39,152 bases of DNA from NCBI GenBank assembly GCA_903644065.1, contig CAHJXF010000004.1, positions 1 through 39,152 on the forward strand. The letters run 5' to 3'. The position numbers and the translations under genes were made by a program. Source of the DNA: Betaproteobacteria bacterium (GTDB lineage Bacteria > Pseudomonadota > Gammaproteobacteria > Burkholderiales > Burkholderiaceae_D). Below, one piece after another: positions 6,245 to 37,838 of the stretch; within the stretch, counting starts at the first letter, position 1; each line of letters starts with the position of its first letter. The notes beneath the pieces were generated by a model. The model saw only the letters and a program-made list of their open reading frames with translations. It searched no databases and was not told the origin of the DNA.

Positions 6245-7180
6245 TCAGCTCTCCGACCGCACCGCCATCGCCTGGATGATGGTTTCCAGCTGCGGGCTCA
6301 TCGGCAGGTCGAGGCTGACGCCGCTCGGCAACTTGCGCAGGAACCAGCGGTTGTAGCGCCGTTCGATCTCGCGGTCCCCGGCCAGTTGCACGAAGGTGTC
6401 GTCGACCAGCTTCGTCATCGACGGGTCGGCGCGACGGAACATCACGCCGTACGGGTCGTAGGACAGGAAGTCGCCGATCACCACGTAGTCGCCCTGCGCG
6501 TTGTTCTGCGCCAGCAGCCCGTACAACAGCACGTCGTCGGTGGCGAACGCGTCGGCCTCGCCCGCGGCCAGCATGCGGAACGACGCGGCATGGTCGGCGC
6601 CGGTCACGATCGTCGTGTCGAGCTTGAACTTCCGCTTCAGGTCCTGCAGCGTCTTCTCGTTGGTGGTGCCCGCCGTGACCACCACGCGCCGACCGTTCAG
6701 GTCGCTGTAGGACTTGATCGGCGAGCCCTTCCTGACCATCAGCTTGGTGCCCGACACGAACATCGTCGGCGAGAAGCTCACCTGCTTCTGCCGTTCGAGG
6801 TTGCTGGTGGTGGAACCGCACTCGAGATCGACCTTGCCCGAGCTCACGGCCGGGATGCGCGACTCGGACGTGACCGGCACCCAGCGGATCGCCACGTTGC
6901 GGCCGACCGCCTCGCCGATCGCGTCGACCAGCAGCTTGCACAGGTCGATCGAGTAGCCGATCGGCTCGCCGCGCGCCGACAGGTACGAGAACGGGATCGA
7001 CGACTCGCGATAGCCGATCGTGATGGCCCCGCTCTCCTGCACCTTTTGCAGCGTGCCGGTGAGCCGTGTCGGTGCCTGATCCGATTGCGCGGGCGACGTC
7101 GCGCTCCACGACAGGGCCGCGCTCGCGAGCACGGCGAGCGCACCGCGCATCTTTAGCCGACGGCCGACGAGAGGGCTCAT
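6245..7180 (-). CDS. GltI-like amino-acid solute-binding protein, 311 aa
   Basis: This is a periplasmic binding protein of the family-3 type (glutamate/aspartate GltI-like). After a signal peptide (ALAVLASAALSWSATSPAQS), the first lobe carries ITIGYRESSIPFSYL and GYSIDLCKLLVDAI. The family-typical VDLECGSTTSNLERQKQVSFS comes next, and the second lobe has VVVTAGTTNEKTLQDL. Two starts are possible: ATG at 7178-7180 and ATG at 7148-7150. The longer one is used, giving a 5-bp gap to the upstream symporter gene. No ABC permease or ATPase is adjacent. The only transporter next to it is the cation symporter, so it may serve a distant ABC system or have some other relation to the symporter. Glutamate, aspartate or a related acidic ligand is inferred from family resemblance. 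Confidence 0.85.
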   Translation of the reverse strand: MSPLVGRRLKMRGALAVLASAALSWSATSPAQSDQAPTRLTGTLQKVQESGAITIGYRESSIPFSYLSARGEPIGYSIDLCKLLVDAIGEAVGRNVAIRWVPVTSESRIPAVSSGKVDLECGSTTSNLERQKQVSFSPTMFVSGTKLMVRKGSPIKSYSDLNGRRVVVTAGTTNEKTLQDLKRKFKLDTTIVTGADHAASFRMLAAGEADAFATDDVLLYGLLAQNNAQGDYVVIGDFLSYDPYGVMFRRADPSMTKLVDDTFVQLAGDREIERRYNRWFLRKLPSGVSLDLPMSPQLETIIQAMAVRSES

Positions 7181-7185
7181 GCCGT

Positions 7186-8484
7186 TCAGGCCGGCATCGG
7201 CATCGGTGCGACGTTCGTGTCGAGCGTCCGCGCGTTGCTCTCCGCGTCGCGCTCGGGCAGCAACTCGCCTTCCCACTTGGCCACGACGGCGCTGGCGATC
7301 GAGTTGCCGACCGCGTTGGTGGCCGACCGCCCCATGTCGAGGAAGGTGTCGACGCCGAGGATCAGCAGCAGCCCGGCCTCGGGGATGTTGAACTGGTTCA
7401 GCGTGGCCGCGATCACCACCAGCGACGCGCGCGGCACGCCGGCCATGCCCTTCGACGTCATCATCAGGATCAGCATCATCGTCACCTGAGTGCCGAGCGT
7501 GAGATGGATGCCGTAGGCCTGCGCGATGAACAGCGTGGCGAACGTGCAGTACATCATCGAGCCGTCGAGGTTGAACGAGTAGCCCATCGGCATCACGAAC
7601 GCCGAGATCTTCCGCTTGACGCCGAAGCGGTCGAGCGCGTCGAGGATCTTGGGGTAGGCGGCCTCGGAGCTGGCGGTCGCGAACGACAGCAGGAACGGCT
7701 CGCGGATCAGCGTCATCAGCTTCAGGATGCGCTTGCCGAGGAACGTGTAGCCGGCCGCGATCAGCAGGCCCCAGAGGATGAACAGGCCGATGTAGAAGTC
7801 GCCCATGAACACCGCGAACTTGAGCAGGATCTCGAGGCCGTTGGTGGCGACCGTGGCCGCCATCGCGGCCAGCACCGCGAGCGGCGCCAGCTTCATCACG
7901 TAGGCCGTGATCTTGAGCATCGCGTGCGACAGCTCGTCGATCACCGCGATCAGCGTCTTGCCGCGCTCGCCGAGCGCCGACAGCGCGACGCCGAAGAACA
8001 TCGAGAACACCACGATCTGCAGGATCTCGTTGTTGGCCATCGCCTCGAAGAACGACTTGGGCACCAGGTGGCCGACGAAGTCCTTCAGCGTGAACTTGGA
8101 CGTGGCGAGGTTGGCCGACGCGCCGATGTCCGGCAGCGGCAGGCCGAGGTTCTCGCCCGGCTGCAGCAGGTTGGCGAGGACCAGGCCGAGCACCAGCGAC
8201 ACCAGCGACGCGGTGACGAACCAGCCGAGCGCCTTGCCGAACACGCGCCCCACCGACGACGCGTCGCCCATGTGCGCGATGCCGACCACCAGCGTCGAGA
8301 ACACCAGCGGCCCGATCAACATCTTGATCAATCGCAGGAAGACGTCGGACATGATCGAGATGTAGCCGGCGATCGTCGTGGCGGTCTTCTTGTCGGGAAA
8401 GCTCGTGAAGACCATGTAGCCGATCACGATGCCGATCACCATCGCGATCAGGATCCAGGCGGCGGCGGGCAGTTTTCTTTTCAT
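7186..8484 (-). CDS. Dicarboxylate/amino acid:cation symporter (DAACS family), 432 aa
   Basis: This is a secondary transporter of the DctA/GltP family, importing C4-dicarboxylates or acidic amino acids with H+ or Na+. It begins MKRKLPAAAWILIAMVIGIV and has about eight hydrophobic segments plus re-entrant regions. Family motifs include the serine-rich loop FATASSEAAYP, then PMGYSFNLDGSMMY, and near the end VDTFLDMGRSATNAVGNS, the binding-site region. The ATG at 8482-8484 was chosen because AGGAAG lies about 6 nt upstream and the hydrophobic N-terminus starts there. The frame stays open further upstream, but that part is Arg-rich shadow sequence. It is divergent from the aminotransferase gene (167-bp gap) and leads a two-gene unit with the solute-binding protein. 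DctA versus GltP specificity is not resolved. Confidence 0.92.
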   Translation of the reverse strand: MKRKLPAAAWILIAMVIGIVIGYMVFTSFPDKKTATTIAGYISIMSDVFLRLIKMLIGPLVFSTLVVGIAHMGDASSVGRVFGKALGWFVTASLVSLVLGLVLANLLQPGENLGLPLPDIGASANLATSKFTLKDFVGHLVPKSFFEAMANNEILQIVVFSMFFGVALSALGERGKTLIAVIDELSHAMLKITAYVMKLAPLAVLAAMAATVATNGLEILLKFAVFMGDFYIGLFILWGLLIAAGYTFLGKRILKLMTLIREPFLLSFATASSEAAYPKILDALDRFGVKRKISAFVMPMGYSFNLDGSMMYCTFATLFIAQAYGIHLTLGTQVTMMLILMMTSKGMAGVPRASLVVIAATLNQFNIPEAGLLLILGVDTFLDMGRSATNAVGNSIASAVVAKWEGELLPERDAESNARTLDTNVAPMPMPA

Positions 8485-8651
8485 CAGGGCTTCCTGGAGA
8501 GATGCGCGGCGGAGCCCCGAGCGTATGCAACGTTCGTGCCGGCAACAAGCGCCGCGTCGACGTGCGTTGCTTCCACGCCCGGACCGACTCGCGCGGTGGC
8601 ACAGTGCGGGTCGCGCGGCGACCGCGCCGCCTCGACCGACCTTTCCCACCG

Positions 8652-9839
8652 ATGACCCAAGCCCCGCTCGACCCCGCCACCGCCTCCCCCCAGGCCCGCC
8701 TGGACATCCGCAACCTGCGCGGCTCGCGCATCCGCGAGGTGTCGAACGCCGGCCTCCACCTCGCCGACGTGCTGCCGTTCTGGTTCGGCGAGTCGGACCA
8801 GGTCACGCCGGCCTTCGTGCGACGTGCGGCCGCCGACGCGCTCGACCGCGGCGCGACCTTCTACACCCACAACCTCGGCATCCCACGCCTGCGCGACGCG
8901 CTCGCGCAGTACGTGAGCCGCCTGCACGGCGCGACCGCGGCCGACCAGGTCGTCGTGACCAGCGCCGGCGTCAACGCGCTGATGCTCGCCGCGCAGCTCG
9001 TCATCGGGCCCGGCGATCGCGCCGTCGCCGTCACGCCGCTCTGGCCCAACGTCATCGAGATCCCGAAGATCCTCGGCGCGACCGTCGAGACGGTGTCGCT
9101 CGCGTTCGGCGCGGCGGGCTGGACCCTCGACGTCGAGCAGTTGCTGGCGGCGCTCACGCCCGGCACGCGCGCGCTGATCGTCAACTCGCCGAACAACCCC
9201 ACCGGCTGGGTCATGCCGCGCGACGCGCAGCAGGTCGTGCTCGACCACTGCCGCCGCCACGGCATCTGGATCCTGGCCGACGAGGTGTACGAGCGGTTGT
9301 GGTTCGGCGACGGTCCGAGCGCGCCGTCGTTCCTCGACGTCGCGACCCGCGACGAGCGGGTGATCTGCGTCAACTCGTTCTCGAAGAGCTGGCTGATGAC
9401 CGGCTGGCGGCTCGGCTGGATGGTCCTGCCGACGAGCCTGCTCGGCGACCTCGGCAAGCTGATCGAATACAACACGTCGTGCGCGCCGTCGTTCGTCCAG
9501 GAGGCCGGCGTCGCGGCCGTGACCGACGGCGAACCGTTCGTCCGCGAGCTGATCGTGGATCTGCGCACGTCGCGCGACCATCTCGTCGCCGCGTTGTCGA
9601 CGCTGCCCGGCGTCGAGGTCCACGCGCCGCACGGCGCCATGTACGTGTTCTTCCGCGTGGACGAGGCCGGCGACAGCCTCGCGTTCTGCAAGCGCATGGT
9701 CCGCGACGCGCGCGTCGGCCTCGCACCGGGCAGCGCGTTCGGCGACGACGGCGAGGGCTTCGTGCGCTGGTGCTACGCGTGCAAGCCCGATCGGCTCGAC
9801 GAGGGCGTGCGCCGCTTTCGCGCGGCGCTCGCGCGCTGA
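8652..9839 (+). CDS. Class I/II PLP-dependent aminotransferase, 395 aa
   Basis: This is a fold-type I aminotransferase of the AspC-like group. Substrate-binding and cofactor motifs are in order: FYTHNLGIPRLRDALAQYV, VTSAGVNALMLAAQ, NSPNNPTGWVMP (the conserved Asn), ILADEVYERLWF (Asp and Tyr contacting PLP) and NSFSKSWLMTGWRLGW, where K245 is the Schiff-base lysine. The C-terminal part holds GAMYVFFRV and GLAPGSAFGDDGEGFVR, with the Arg that binds the substrate carboxylate. The ATG at 8652 fits the usual family N-terminus. The divergent neighbour is a transporter for dicarboxylates or acidic amino acids. That would suit an enzyme using glutamate, aspartate or 2-oxoglutarate, but the amino-acid specificity cannot be read from the sequence. 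Confidence 0.9.
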   Translation: MTQAPLDPATASPQARLDIRNLRGSRIREVSNAGLHLADVLPFWFGESDQVTPAFVRRAAADALDRGATFYTHNLGIPRLRDALAQYVSRLHGATAADQVVVTSAGVNALMLAAQLVIGPGDRAVAVTPLWPNVIEIPKILGATVETVSLAFGAAGWTLDVEQLLAALTPGTRALIVNSPNNPTGWVMPRDAQQVVLDHCRRHGIWILADEVYERLWFGDGPSAPSFLDVATRDERVICVNSFSKSWLMTGWRLGWMVLPTSLLGDLGKLIEYNTSCAPSFVQEAGVAAVTDGEPFVRELIVDLRTSRDHLVAALSTLPGVEVHAPHGAMYVFFRVDEAGDSLAFCKRMVRDARVGLAPGSAFGDDGEGFVRWCYACKPDRLDEGVRRFRAALAR

Positions 9840-16221: not shown

Positions 16222-16273
16222 GCGCGATCGGATCGGTGTAGCGGCGCGGGCGCGTCGTCGATCTACCGCGCGC

Positions 16274-16390
16274 TCGCCGTACTCGCCGCCCTCGCCGCAC
16301 CGCCGTACTCGCCGCACCGTCGTACTCGCCGCACCGTCGTACTCGCCGCACCGTCGTACTCGCCGCACCGCCGTACTCGCCGTACTCGCC
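16274..16390. repeat. 17-bp tandem repeat between prfA and prmC
   Basis: Four consecutive 17-mers CGTACTCGCCGCACCGT occupy 16304-16320, 16321-16337, 16338-16354 and 16355-16371; only the last base of the fourth differs. Degenerate flanking copies extend the array from about 16274 to 16390, including two short CGTACTCGC units at 16372-16390. A 17-bp period shifts the frame at each copy, so the array is unlikely to be coding. It ends 5 bp before the GGAGG of prmC. Confidence 0.92.
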
Positions 16391-17346: not shown

Positions 17347-17766
17347 ATGTCCATGAGTCGTCTCTTCGCCGGCCTGTTCGTGATCGCGGCTGTCGTCGCC
17401 TGCACCGGGAAGCCCGACGACCCGGCGGCGACGAGCAGCGCCAGGGATGGTGCCGATCGGGCGGTGGATTCGACGAGGGGCGCGGTCGGCGACGCGACCG
17501 ACGCCGCAAAGGACCGGTCGCGTGCCGCCGGCGACGTCCGGGACCCGACCGGTGCCGCGGTCGACAACGCCGGCGACTCGTCGAAGACCGCGCTGGACAA
17601 GGTCAAGGACACCACCGGCAACGCGGTGGAAGCCACGAGGGACAAGGTCTCCGAGGTCGGCGACAGGACCAGGGAACTCGCGGTCGAGGCGAAGGACAAT
17701 GTCAAGGAGGGGGCCGAGAAGGTTTCCGACAAGACGCGGGAACTGACGCACAAGACCAGGGAGTAG
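17347..17766 (+). CDS. Small helical lipoprotein with degenerate amphipathic repeats, 139 aa
   Basis: The N-terminus MSMSRLFAGLFVIAAVVACT is a lipoprotein signal with lipobox V-V-A-C19. The residue after the Cys is Thr rather than Asp, so outer-membrane sorting is likely. The mature part is free of Cys and aromatics and very rich in Asp, Lys, Ala, Thr and Val. It has repeating 11-residue-like patterns such as DKVKDTTGNAVEATRDKVSE and KDNVKEGAEKVSDKTREL, resembling LEA or apolipoprotein-type amphipathic helices. Proteins of this type are often linked to envelope or desiccation stress, but no function can be assigned here. A second ATG at 17353 is equally possible. It interrupts the usual prmC-grxD adjacency and has its own candidate -10 box. 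Confidence 0.82.
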   Translation: MSMSRLFAGLFVIAAVVACTGKPDDPAATSSARDGADRAVDSTRGAVGDATDAAKDRSRAAGDVRDPTGAAVDNAGDSSKTALDKVKDTTGNAVEATRDKVSEVGDRTRELAVEAKDNVKEGAEKVSDKTRELTHKTRE

Positions 17767-18309: not shown

Positions 18310-19284
18310 TCAGGGCGGCGCGAGCAGGCGACGCATCATCAGGTCGAGGACGCGCTGGCCGTCGGACGCGAGGCAGACCTGCACGTTGGGCGGCCCGGTC
18401 GCCTCCGTCGTCGCGCCGTCGTCGGCGATCGCGAGGCGGAGCGGCTGCAACGGGCATAGCGTCGAATCCAGCAAGGTCGCGACCGGAACCACGTCGAACA
18501 GCGTCGGTGTGATGCTGGCCCACGGCTGGTCCGCGGCGCTCCACTGCTGATACAGCAGCGTCAGCGCGTCCGTGACGGCGCTGCCGTGCGCGAACAGTTC
18601 GCGACGGCGCACCTCGTCGAGTTGCACGAGCGTCGAGTCGAGCGGAAACAGTGCGATCGGCACGCCGGACGCCAGGACCGCGCGGGCCGCCGCCGGGTCG
18701 GCGGCCAGGTTGTATTCGCGGGCCGGTGCGCTGGCCGCCGCGTATTGCGCCCGACCATACCCGCGCCGCACGGAGCCGCCCATCAGGACGATGCGCTTGA
18801 ACTGCCGGAAACGTCGCGGGTCGCGTTCGAGGGCGGCGGCGACGTTGGTCAGCGGTCCGAGCGCGAGCAACGTGACGTCGCCGGGATGCGCCGCGGCGGC
18901 GTCGAGCAGCAGCTCGACGGACGACGCGACCGGCGCGTCGCCCGCCGGCCAGCGTCGGGCCCAGCGGGCCTGGCTGAAGCCGGTCGTGCTGGTCGTCACG
19001 ATGCCCTGGCCGATCGCGATGCCGCGCCCTCCGGCCTCGTGCAGGAAGCGCTGCACCAGCCGGACGCGCAACGGGGTGTCGCCCCACGCGGTGCTGATGC
19101 CGACGAGCTCGATCTCGGGACTGGCGAGCAACAGGCCGAGCGCGAACGCGTCGTCGATGTCGTCGCCGATGTCGAGGTCGACCACCACCTTCTCGGCCGC
19201 GAGCACGGTGCTGCTGCCCAGGAGGCTCGCGAGCAGCAGGCCGAGCGACGCGATGCCCCGCAGCCACGCGGGCACACGGGTCAA
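18310..19284 (-). CDS. Exported nucleoside hydrolase (inosine-uridine preferring family), 324 aa
   Basis: Enzymes of this family split the N-glycosidic bond of ribonucleosides into base and ribose, using a bound Ca2+. The metal-binding aspartate cluster appears as VVDLDIGDDIDDAFALGLLL near the mature N-terminus. The mid-region has LLALGPLTNVAAALERDP and IVLMGGSVRRGYG. The ribose/metal segment EYNLAADPAAARAVL follows. A signal peptide is evident (LRGIASLGLLLASLLGSSTV, cleavage near LAAE), so it should act in the periplasm. I chose TTG at 19282-19284: it overlaps the upstream hydrolase stop as TTGA and GGAAG lies 7 nt upstream. GTG at 19273-19275 is the alternative. It is the last gene of a coupled trio with the TonB receptor and alpha/beta hydrolase. 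Base specificity is not determinable. Confidence 0.88.
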   Translation of the reverse strand: MTRVPAWLRGIASLGLLLASLLGSSTVLAAEKVVVDLDIGDDIDDAFALGLLLASPEIELVGISTAWGDTPLRVRLVQRFLHEAGGRGIAIGQGIVTTSTTGFSQARWARRWPAGDAPVASSVELLLDAAAAHPGDVTLLALGPLTNVAAALERDPRRFRQFKRIVLMGGSVRRGYGRAQYAAASAPAREYNLAADPAAARAVLASGVPIALFPLDSTLVQLDEVRRRELFAHGSAVTDALTLLYQQWSAADQPWASITPTLFDVVPVATLLDSTLCPLQPLRLAIADDGATTEATGPPNVQVCLASDGQRVLDLMMRRLLAPP

Positions 19285-20216
19285 AGGAACGCTTCCACCG
19301 CTTTCAGGAAACGCTCCGGCGCCTCGATCATCGGCGCGTGCCCGCAGTCGGGGATGACGACCAGCCGTGCGCCGGGGATGCCAGCCGCGTAGCCCCGGCC
19401 GTCGTCGAGCGGAACGAGCCGGTCGTCCTGTCCCCACACCACCAGCGTCGGGATCGTGATGACGCCGAGACGTTCGGCGACGGCCTCGTCGACGATCGAG
19501 CGGTTGCCGTAGAACGACTGGATGGTCCAGCCGTCGCCCTTCGCGATCGACCACGCCATGCCGCTGCGGAGGCCCTCGTCGGCGATGTAGGCGGGATCGT
19601 GGAAGATCGCGCCGAGCAGCTGCTTCTCGCCCGCGAGCGTGACCCCGGTCGGCCCGCGATTCTCGCCGCGTTCGAAGATTCTGCCGACCGACGTCTTGCT
19701 GAAGCCCGCCGCGTCGGAGAGCACCAGCCGGGCCGGCCGGGGCAGCACGAACGCGGGGCCGACGGCCTCGCCCGCCAGCGCCTGGATGGCGTACTGCGCG
19801 GCGATCCAGCCGCCGAGCGACTCGCCGACCAGCGTGAAGCGGTCGACCTGCCGCTGCCGCAGGAACTCGCCGAGCGTGTCGACCCAGGTCTGGACGTTGT
19901 AGGTGATGAACGGCTTGTCCGACGCGCCGAAGCCGAGCAGGTCGAGCGCCAGCACGCGATGCGTGGCGCTCAGCGTCCGCAGCAACTTGCCCCAGTCGCC
20001 CTCGGCGCTGCTGCCGAGCCCGTGGACCAGCACCAGTGTCGGCCCGCGTCCCATCTCGAAGTAGCGGATCCGGGCGCCGAACACCAGCGCCGTCTGCTGC
20101 TCGGGTAGCGGAGCAGCGGGCATCGCCGCGAACGCACCGGCCGGACTCGCGACGAGCCAGGCCAGGCAGGCGGCGGCGACCGCCGGCCGCCACCGTCGCA
20201 GCAACGCCGCGGTCAC
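19281..20216 (-). CDS. Exported alpha/beta-fold hydrolase, 311 aa
   Basis: This is a serine hydrolase of the alpha/beta family. The oxyanion-loop motif is TLVLVHGLGSSAEGDW. The nucleophile elbow is LVGESLGGWIAAQYA with S133. The acid is probably an Asp of VVWGQDDRLVPL and the histidine lies in IPDCGHAPMIEAPERF. A signal peptide precedes the domain (RRWRPAVAAACLAWLVASPA), so the enzyme should be periplasmic or membrane-tethered. The start is GTG at 20214-20216, which overlaps the receptor stop as GTGA; this implies translational coupling. Such proteins are usually esterases, lactonases or C-C bond hydrolases. Here it lies between a TonB-dependent receptor and a nucleoside hydrolase, so an esterified nucleoside or similar substrate is possible but unproven. 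Confidence 0.88.
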   Translation of the reverse strand: MTAALLRRWRPAVAAACLAWLVASPAGAFAAMPAAPLPEQQTALVFGARIRYFEMGRGPTLVLVHGLGSSAEGDWGKLLRTLSATHRVLALDLLGFGASDKPFITYNVQTWVDTLGEFLRQRQVDRFTLVGESLGGWIAAQYAIQALAGEAVGPAFVLPRPARLVLSDAAGFSKTSVGRIFERGENRGPTGVTLAGEKQLLGAIFHDPAYIADEGLRSGMAWSIAKGDGWTIQSFYGNRSIVDEAVAERLGVITIPTLVVWGQDDRLVPLDDGRGYAAGIPGARLVVIPDCGHAPMIEAPERFLKAVEAFL

Positions 20217-22471
20217 AGCCAGTTGACGCGGAACTGGACGCCGACGATGCGCGGATCGTTGATGAAGCCTTCGAGGTTGTTGAAGTCGATCGCCCCGTTG
20301 ACGCGGATCTGGTTCGCGCAGTTGCGGCAGAACGCGGCCGCCTCGTAGCGTCCCTCGCCCCAGCGATAGCCGAGGCGCAGTCCGGCTTCGGTCAACGACT
20401 TGCCGGTGAACTCGGTCGACTCGTAGAGGAACAGGTTGATCCTGGTGCGATACGACACGTCCGCCGACAGCGACAGGTCGCCGTTGGCCACCGGCATCGT
20501 GTACTTGGCCGTCGCGTAGCTGATGAACCTGGGCGCCTGCGGCAACGAGTTGCCGTTGATGTAGTAGAAGCCCGGACGGTTCGGCACCGGCGTGTCGGTG
20601 ACGTTGCAGCCGCTGCCGCAACCGGCCACCGACAGCGTCGGGTCCTTGATCTCGGTCTTGTTGTAGCTGCCGCCCACCGACACCTTGAAGCGGTCCGACA
20701 GCAGCGCCTCGACGTTGAGCTCGGCGCCGTTGCCGGTCGACTTCTTCGCGTTGATCAGGCTCGTGACGTTGCTGTTGCCGCCGACCGCGGTCAGCTGCTG
20801 GTCCTTCACGTCGAAGTGGTAGACGTCGAAGCTGACTCGGGCGCGCCGGTTGAGCAGGTCGGCCTTCACGCCGGTCTCGTACGAGGTGGTGGTCTCCGGC
20901 GCGGCCGAAGTCAGCAGCTGGCCGCTCGACGGCGACCCGAAGCTCGCGCCGCGAAAGCCCGTAGCGACCCGGGCGTAGAGGCTCAGGTCCGGATCGATCT
21001 TGTACGTCCCGGCGACGTCGCCGGTGACCTTCGAGGCGCTGAGCTTGACCGCGCCCGGGTCCGAGAAGCCGATGCGCTTCGTGAAGGTCTTCTTGTCGTC
21101 GGTGTAGCGCACGCCGGCGCGCAGGTCGAGCTGCTGCGTCACGTCGTAGGTCGCCGAGCCGAACACCGCGTACGCCGTATTGACCTGCGACGTGGTCGCA
21201 TAGCTGGTGGGGGCGGCGGTGCGGCTGTTGTAGGTGTAGTTCTCGGCGGTCAGGTCCTCGAAGAAATAGTAGAGGCCCGCCTGGTAGTTGAACGGACCGG
21301 GCAGGTCGGACGAGATGCGGAACTCCTGCGTCAGCTGCTTGTGGTCGGTGACGCCGCCGCCGGTCTCGACCGGGAACGGCGTGTTGGTGCCGTCGCCGCC
21401 GTCGATGTCGCCGCGCGTGAAGTAGCGGCCGATGGTCTCGTAGCCGGTGATGGAGCTGAGCGTGAAGCCGTCGAACTTGTAGTTGACGTTGGCGTTGGCG
21501 CCCTGGGTGCGCAGGTTCTGCTGGTTCTTCCCGTTCGACGAGATGAAGTCCTCGTTGAAGCCGTCGACCAGGTCGTTGGTGCCCTTCTTGATGATGTTGC
21601 CGCGGAACACGCGCGCGCTGCCCGACAGCGAGCGCGCATGCACGTTGAACAGCGCGTTCAGCTGCGCGTTCGGCTGGTACAGCAGCTGGATGCGCGCCGC
21701 GCCGTCGTTGTAGCCCTCGGTGTGCGACCCGTTGTACAGGTTGGTGGGGTCCATGCTCTCGACGGTCACCCAGTCGCGGCGATGCTCGCCGAGGACCGAC
21801 GCACGGACCGCCCACTCCTGACCGAGCGGCACGCTCGAAGCCGCCTCGAAGTTGGTGGTCGCGAGCGAACCGAACGAGATCGATGCGTAGCCGTCGGTGG
21901 CGCCGATCACCGGCTTGACCGAATTGAACTTGATGACCCCGGCCGGCGTGTTGCGGCCGAACAGGCTGCCCTGCGGACCGCGCAGCACTTCGACGTTCTC
22001 GAGGTCGAAGATCGGGAAGCCCTTCAGGATCGCGTTCTCCTGAACGATGTCGTCGTAGATCAGCGAGACCGGCTGCGACGCGTAGGTGTTGAAGTCGGTG
22101 TTGCCGTAGCCGCGGATGTACACGCGTGGAAAGGTGCGGCCGTTGGACGATTCGATGTTCAGGCTGGGCACCTTGCCGGCGAGCACGCGGATGTCCTGGC
22201 CGGAGGTCGAGATGTTCTCGAGCGTCTCCGGGTTGAGGACGGTCGCCGAGACCGGCACGTCCTTGTAGTTCTCGATCTTTCGCTGCGCGGTGACGTTGAC
22301 CTGTTCGAGCTGCACGTTGCCCGTCGCCTGGGGGTCGGGTTGCTGCGCCAGCGCCTGCTGCATCGGCCAGGCCGCGGTCACCGCGAGCACGAGAGCCGCT
22401 TTCGGCAGGCGGCACGACAGCGGGCGCGTCGGGGCGAACGGAGAAGTGGCTGGAGCAACGGCACGGCGCAT
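20213..22471 (-). CDS. TonB-dependent outer-membrane receptor, 752 aa
   Basis: This is a ligand-gated outer-membrane barrel driven by TonB-ExbBD. The signal peptide (LPKAALVLAVTAAWPMQQAL, then AQQ) is followed by a probable TonB box within QLEQVNVTAQRKIEN. The plug has VPVSATVLNPETLENIS, TFPRVYIRGYGNTDFN and the signature ENVEVLRGPQGSLFGRNTPA. The 22-strand barrel follows with typical extracellular loops and ends IVGVQFRVNWL. The ATG at 22469-22471 was chosen because the signal peptide lies close behind it; an upstream ATG at 22538-22540 is possible. No FecR/FecI or Fur-type site is seen. The two genes behind it, both for exported hydrolases, overlap stop to start. The ligand is therefore more likely an organic compound processed in the periplasm than a simple siderophore, but this is inference. 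Confidence 0.95.
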   Translation of the reverse strand: MRRAVAPATSPFAPTRPLSCRLPKAALVLAVTAAWPMQQALAQQPDPQATGNVQLEQVNVTAQRKIENYKDVPVSATVLNPETLENISTSGQDIRVLAGKVPSLNIESSNGRTFPRVYIRGYGNTDFNTYASQPVSLIYDDIVQENAILKGFPIFDLENVEVLRGPQGSLFGRNTPAGVIKFNSVKPVIGATDGYASISFGSLATTNFEAASSVPLGQEWAVRASVLGEHRRDWVTVESMDPTNLYNGSHTEGYNDGAARIQLLYQPNAQLNALFNVHARSLSGSARVFRGNIIKKGTNDLVDGFNEDFISSNGKNQQNLRTQGANANVNYKFDGFTLSSITGYETIGRYFTRGDIDGGDGTNTPFPVETGGGVTDHKQLTQEFRISSDLPGPFNYQAGLYYFFEDLTAENYTYNSRTAAPTSYATTSQVNTAYAVFGSATYDVTQQLDLRAGVRYTDDKKTFTKRIGFSDPGAVKLSASKVTGDVAGTYKIDPDLSLYARVATGFRGASFGSPSSGQLLTSAAPETTTSYETGVKADLLNRRARVSFDVYHFDVKDQQLTAVGGNSNVTSLINAKKSTGNGAELNVEALLSDRFKVSVGGSYNKTEIKDPTLSVAGCGSGCNVTDTPVPNRPGFYYINGNSLPQAPRFISYATAKYTMPVANGDLSLSADVSYRTRINLFLYESTEFTGKSLTEAGLRLGYRWGEGRYEAAAFCRNCANQIRVNGAIDFNNLEGFINDPRIVGVQFRVNWL

Positions 22472-37545: not shown

Positions 37546-37577
37546 CGGCAGTAAGCAGAAACGAAGCGAAGAACGAT

Positions 37578-37838
37578 CATCCCGGCATGGGCCGGACCCA
37601 ACCAGGGTGAACCCACCGATCCGGAGAACCGTCATCCCGGCGAAGGCCGGGACCCAATCAGGGTGCAAACACCAATTCGTGCAACTGTCATCCCGGCGAA
37701 GGCCGGGACCCAATCAGGGTGCAAACACCAATTCGTGCAACTGTCATCCCGGCGAAGGCCGGGACCCAGTCAGGGTGCAAACACCAATTCGTGCAACTGT
37801 CATCCCGGCGCAGGCCGGGACCCAATCAGGGTGAACCC
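37578..37838. repeat. Tandem array of 56-bp hairpin-forming elements between hisF and hisA
   Basis: Five units start at 37578, 37633, 37689, 37745 and 37801. Units 2-4 are exactly 56 bp and nearly identical (one difference seen, CCCAAT to CCCAGT in unit 4). Unit 1 is 55 bp and diverged in its second half. Unit 5 is truncated after about 38 bp. Each contains TCCCGGC-GAAG-GCCGGGA, a 7-bp stem with a 4-nt loop, followed by a linker in which GTGCAA occurs twice. The head CATCCCGGCGAAGGCCGGGA resembles dispersed REP-like elements known from Proteobacteria. The rest of the 37546-37878 gap shows nothing else. Confidence 0.93.

Follow-up and report, generated by a model that had tools for sequence, protein, structure and literature searches.

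Organization of the locus

The window analysed here, a stretch of 39,152 nucleotides, is the entire contig C4 of a 3.7-Mb metagenome-assembled genome (MAG) that is 90% complete. We take this MAG to belong to Burkholderiales, since its closest named relatives are an uncultured Betaproteobacteria MAG and an uncultured Burkholderiales MAG and the Collimonas-like genome G029 falls in its family. The window contains three minus-strand genes arranged head to tail, all present with open reading frames, whose features are as follows:

20213..22471, minus strand: TonB-dependent outer-membrane receptor (TBDR), 752 amino acids, with a predicted N-terminal export signal (Pfam Plug and TonB_dep_Rec_b-barrel; orthologues; clade support)
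19281..20216, minus strand: alpha/beta hydrolase (ABH), 311 amino acids, predicted to be exported (Abhydrolase_1/6; alignment; operon-bound orthologues)
18310..19284, minus strand: nucleoside hydrolase (NH), 324 amino acids, predicted to be exported (IU_nuc_hydro; 53-row alignment; AlphaFold2 model; PDB matches)
20213..20216, minus strand: GTGA stop/start overlap between TBDR and ABH (sequence; the junction reads ...GGCTGTGACC...)
19281..19284, minus strand: TTGA stop/start overlap between ABH and NH, with a TTG start (sequence; kept in the genus relative G001; the junction reads ...CCTTTGACC...)

The two 4-bp overlaps, GTGA and TTGA, are present in the sequence as the initial annotation had described them. 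The tight joins are conserved, as G001 (the same locus as L030) retains TTGA at the ABH-NH junction and has TGATG between TBDR and ABH. The trio is flanked on one side by hemA, prfA and prmC (identified by eye) and a glutaredoxin (Pfam), and on the other by an SPFH protein (Pfam), sspA/sspB and the bc1 complex (both by eye). These look like housekeeping genes and are therefore uninformative on function. An Rfam search of the window detected two tRNAs only and no riboswitch, a promoter scan found nothing, and terminator-like sites were in no excess over shuffled sequences.

Two repeats were observed elsewhere in the window: a 17-bp unit present 6.4 times (CTCGCCGCACCGCCGTA, 16273-16382) between the prfA-like and prmC-like genes, and a tandem 56-bp unit (37577-37833, about 4.6 copies, 91% matches) with the inverted repeat CCCGGCGAAGGCCGGG. 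The product of the gene at 17347-17766 is small and lipoprotein-like, and its amphipathic repeats resemble those of apolipoproteins (Pfam match under the cut-off); a similar protein adjoins NH in the genus mates L024 and L025.

Export signals

Export signals had been proposed for all three products, and this holds by a home-made score for which five cytoplasmic proteins served as controls. TBDR, ABH and NH score 5.6-6.1, while the controls fail (1.7-2.8 in two, no hit in three). By the same score, 71 of 78 NH orthologues have a signal-peptide-like N terminus hydrophobic enough to pass; of the remaining seven, six lie marginally under the hydrophobicity cut and one is lipoprotein-like. An acidobacterial NH (L103, 8842-9831) has a lipobox-like N terminus (ALICCGGC) and is perhaps a lipoprotein form. 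Cys277 and Cys304 of NH are invariant in all 53 aligned NHs, a pattern consistent with a disulfide that would form in the periplasm.

The nucleoside hydrolase lacks the usual active-site histidines

NH scores 149.7 bits against Pfam IU_nuc_hydro (PF01156, cut-off 34.2) and shows the features of this family that were examined: the Pfam score, the nucleoside hydrolase fold, the aspartate cluster, E-x-N and the final Asp. In its motif DxDIGDDIDD, the residues D38, D44 and D45 are invariant where present in the 53-row alignment, and E190, N192 and D264 are kept in 53 of 53 rows. The ribose- and calcium-binding residues of the family are retained. The AlphaFold2 model of NH has a pLDDT of 91.1, and its 50 best PDB matches are all nucleoside hydrolases, the top ones being plant, Gardnerella, Leishmania and E. 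coli enzymes at 22-28% identity.

E. coli RihA and RihB and the protozoan and plant enzymes have in common with NH the fold and the conserved Asp, Glu and Asn residues, but they carry a His at the position of Phe263 and an HG loop that is absent from NH in the profile alignment to solved enzymes. Phe263-Asp264 replaces His-Asp, and position 263, where RihA has His, is Phe in 50 and Tyr in three of the 53 rows. NH therefore falls outside the histidine-using group of RihA and CfNH (His82 and His241 in CfNH numbering). In addition, Asp69 occupies a position that is Asn in the classical enzymes. In purine-specific IAG enzymes, aromatic stacking takes the place of histidine, which makes a purine preference of NH plausible. 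The chemistry of a subfamily without the usual active-site histidines merits assay. The E. coli homologues of the nucleoside hydrolase are cytoplasmic (PMC5437708).

A receptor-nucleoside hydrolase pair is conserved in Proteobacteria

Using five aligned NHs as the query, we scanned genomes, one for each GTDB species, and kept as loci the 80 best among at least 218 relatives. Because of this selection, in which many Xanthomonas rows are closely related, the locus counts are not frequencies. By hand count within these best 80 of at least 218, an orthologous TBDR lies upstream on the same strand in 30 of the 50 proteobacterial loci of the NH subfamily. It is adjacent to NH, or separated from it in a few loci by ABH or a second NH alone. 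The linked loci come from Xanthomonas, Stenotrophomonas, Burkholderiales MAGs, Collimonas and Nitrospirillum, and thus from beta, gamma and alpha groups. Among the same best 80 relatives, the receptor is beside NH in none of 30 acidobacterial loci and was not found near the Duganella NH genes, and in three Janthinobacterium loci it lies 6-7 kb away. A class-wide NH search of 369 genomes gave a match in the window's own genome alone.

The trio as such recurs in a genus mate and, with a second NH, in Collimonas. It is therefore not confined to this strain, although what is mainly conserved is the pair. The proposed co-occurrence of three genes holds for TBDR and NH (the 30 of 50 proteobacterial loci above) and fails for ABH, which is absent from most loci. 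The core of the operon is the TBDR-NH pair, a conserved unit. An NH gene fragment, 47% identical over query residues 208-324, was also seen on an 8-kb X. citri plasmid (L166 1-352, NZ_CP020997.1), adjoining two IS5 copies.

Relatives of the receptor

The Plug and beta-barrel domains of TBDR score over their Pfam cut-offs, as expected of a TonB-dependent receptor, and its orthologues adjoining or near NH are 45-80% identical. In the receptor tree, the seven NH-linked beta/gamma rows form one clade (100/99 support); Nitrospirillum lies outside it, on unresolved branches. TBDR scores 50.5 bits against the SusC model (cut-off 368), and the pesticin receptor, a distant match, is the only solved relative under 1e-10.

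In a gammaproteobacterium without the NH subfamily, a TBDR of 45% identity lies in a cluster of deoB, udk, nupC, tdk, upp and cdd, all of which score over an NCBIfam cut-off; deoC and deoA were read there by eye. The other TBDR relatives found in the same search have neighbours without an evident nucleoside link, so receptor homology alone leaves the ligand unfixed. For the permease that adjoins the L150 receptor, neither Pfam nor NCBIfam gave a family match at the thresholds applied, and it was for that reason not counted as evidence.

Two further receptor loci are recorded here. A Novosphingobium relative of TBDR has as its immediate, divergently oriented neighbour a gene (L164, 7689-8750) whose exported product looks by eye like a class II cyclic-nucleotide phosphodiesterase. 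An X. phaseoli receptor (L055, 6559-8798) aligns as two segments, 6559-7596 and 7632-8798, is uncalled as a single gene and is possibly disrupted.

Gene neighbourhoods in other lineages

In Collimonas, the trio and the second NH adjoin genes for a GntR-FCD regulator and for an ABC transporter whose binding protein is PnrA-like (BMP). Studied members of the PnrA/BMP family include purine-nucleoside carriers; the nearest NCBIfam models of the Collimonas transporter proteins are putative B6 transporters, below the cut-off. The second NH of this operon (L026, 9142-10296) has the sequence DDDVGGPRAAQ in place of the DxDxxxDD of other NHs, and the usual calcium binding may therefore fail in it. In Nitrospirillum, TBDR-NH lies within about 27 kb of xdhABC and of the genes for hydroxyisourate hydrolase and allantoinase (these three sets over NCBIfam cut-offs), as well as of a second NH and an exported adenosine-deaminase-like protein. 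UHCU decarboxylase and allantoate amidohydrolase were seen in a second strain, and in one of four strains the adenosine-deaminase-like gene is on a separate contig. The neighbourhoods in these lineages and the deo-cluster case point to nucleosides, mostly purine. The Xanthomonas pair has, by eye, AcnD/PrpF-like genes upstream and an alpha-2-macroglobulin-like protein downstream, which are uninformative on nucleosides.

In the 90%-complete window MAG, we did not find a PF00860 permease, a BMP lipoprotein or an adenosine deaminase, nor a xanthine dehydrogenase over the cut-off. PfkB matches in this MAG are limited to two contigs (C173 and C109); one kinase is HldE-like, the other weakly nucleoside-kinase-like, and neither passes the ribokinase cut-off.

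The alpha/beta hydrolase is a rare extra

ABH scores over the Pfam cut-off for Abhydrolase_1/6 and has a candidate triad, Ser133-Asp265-His293, deduced from the GESLGG motif and from invariance in four orthologues; by family score and triad it is an alpha/beta hydrolase on its sequence. The structure model, built from four sequences, is too poor for triad geometry (pLDDT 53.6). Its sequence matches in the PDB include esterases, lipases and C-C hydrolases alike and select no substrate.

Orthologues of ABH, at 59-67% identity, occur only in the genus of the window (two of the three genomes seen) and in Collimonas, and every one found sits inside the TBDR-NH operon. At the thresholds used, they were detected in two of 399 Burkholderiales genomes, one being the window genome, and among 399 genomes of the phylum in the window genome and Collimonas only (the two samples overlap). 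No ABH is present in any Xanthomonas, Stenotrophomonas or Nitrospirillum locus or in the genus mate G002. Identities between window and Collimonas are similar for the three products (TBDR 57%, NH 56-57%, ABH 59%), so ABH may have moved as part of the operon and then been lost elsewhere. ABH is thus a rare extra to the receptor-NH pair.

Proposed function

We propose, with a probability of roughly 0.6, that the operon serves nucleoside scavenging at the outer membrane and in the periplasm. TBDR would import nucleosides, probably purine ribonucleosides (adenosine, inosine, guanosine), across the outer membrane, the exported NH would cleave them in the periplasm to ribose and the free base, and separate inner-membrane transporters would take in both products. 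ABH would be an optional periplasmic accessory, possibly for a minority of substrates from which an ester or a comparable group has to be stripped. This proposal follows from the TBDR-NH linkage (30 of 50 loci), the 100/99 receptor clade, the nucleoside and purine contexts, the residues and model of NH, and the precedent of Nuh, a periplasmic NH. Counting against it are the later-step genes not found in the window MAG, the deo-cluster context being a single case, the silence of the Xanthomonas neighbours and the loss of both histidines from NH.

The same loss, together with the missing HG loop and Asp69 instead of the classical Asn, would also fit an NH subfamily that acts on a ribosyl or other glycoside carried by the receptor, such as a plant-derived riboside or sugar conjugate and no common nucleoside, the purine neighbours then being coincidental. 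The subfamily does occur in Acidobacteria and Duganella without an adjoining receptor, and the authors of the X. albilineans study took the receptor for one of carbohydrate uptake (PMC3542200). We nevertheless consider this explanation rather doubtful, given that the ribose- and calcium-binding residues of the family are kept and that three separate contexts concern nucleosides or purines. Receptor relatives without this NH, and NH without the receptor in Duganella and Acidobacteria, could also be read as unrelated genes that share no pathway and became neighbours by chance or through hitch-hiking. Order and strand are constant, however, in 30 loci from three proteobacterial groups, and the linked beta/gamma receptors form one supported clade; chance placement is largely refuted by the locus comparison, and we hold it to be highly improbable.

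The initial annotation had gone further than nucleoside scavenging by this pair: the receptor would import an acylated or otherwise modified nucleoside, ABH would remove the ester and NH would then cleave the N-glycosidic bond. Its general picture, a receptor and periplasmic enzymes that scavenge nucleosides, finds backing in the receptor-NH unit and the nucleoside contexts. The ester step is not supported, as ABH is absent from most loci and has an orthologue in just two of the 399 Burkholderiales genomes. The place of ABH between TBDR and NH, its predicted export, the tight junctions kept in the genus mate and its restriction to the operon (own genus, Collimonas) are what would speak for such a step. 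Against these stand the pairs without ABH in every Xanthomonas, Stenotrophomonas and Nitrospirillum locus and in G002, and the about equal likeness of ABH to many unrelated esterases and C-C hydrolases, so that we judge the step improbable. We give equally little credence to the full combination of a proteobacterial TBDR dedicated to nucleosides and a periplasmic histidine-free NH with, in few lineages, an esterase that opens acylated or capped nucleosides. Queuosine- or cobalamin-linked scavenging was also considered and dropped, with no neighbouring gene in its favour.

The locus is a real, conserved receptor-hydrolase operon whose most likely role is to scavenge nucleosides. Its arrangement is new, and its parts are already known.

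Comparison with known systems

That no system of this composition had been described proved too strong a claim in view of Nuh (PMC5437708), the rus locus (PMC10434189, PMC12596196) and a gene pair of X. albilineans (PMC3542200). The rus locus of B. thetaiotaomicron (BT2803-2809) encodes a TonB-dependent receptor and a SusD protein together with a nucleoside hydrolase and a ribokinase (PMC10434189, PMC12596196). It resembles the window operon in combining a TonB receptor and a nucleoside hydrolase in one locus, and also serves ribose use; it differs in having a SusC/SusD pair, a ribokinase and a transporter in the locus, whereas the window operon has no SusD and no kinase. The trio has no SusC/SusD pair, with no candidate SusD gene within or beside it, and the window MAG has no PfkB match over the ribokinase cut-off.

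Tsx, the E. coli nucleoside channel, is outside the TonB-dependent class (PMC11658791). It would share with TBDR the outer-membrane passage of nucleosides, and only TBDR belongs to that class. In the literature, as partially covered here, we found no proposal of a nucleoside ligand for the TBDR family.

In X. albilineans, XALc_0643, a second receptor (XALc_0646) and a putative nucleoside hydrolase form a putative operon; XALc_0643 was tied to disease severity in a transposon screen, and the authors proposed the transport of carbohydrates released by cellulases (PMC3542200). In our X. albilineans locus (L075), orthologues of TBDR and NH form the pair and a second receptor is present; we tentatively equate the paired receptor with XALc_0643 by species, gene order and the second receptor. 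Receptor and NH are arranged as in the window, but without the alpha/beta hydrolase. Nucleosides are thus a ligand hypothesis for XALc_0643, as an alternative to carbohydrates (PMC3542200).

A close parallel to NH is Nuh of P. aeruginosa, a periplasmic NH that acts on adenosine and inosine and frees the base and ribose (PMC5437708). NH has the export signal that a Nuh-like location calls for, as judged by the home-made score alone, and the two are likened as periplasmic nucleoside hydrolases by the description of Nuh, not by sequence. According to the same study, no outer-membrane transport protein for the Nuh system, should there be one, had been identified (PMC5437708), and TBDR offers a candidate, open to testing, for an outer-membrane nucleoside transporter of this kind.
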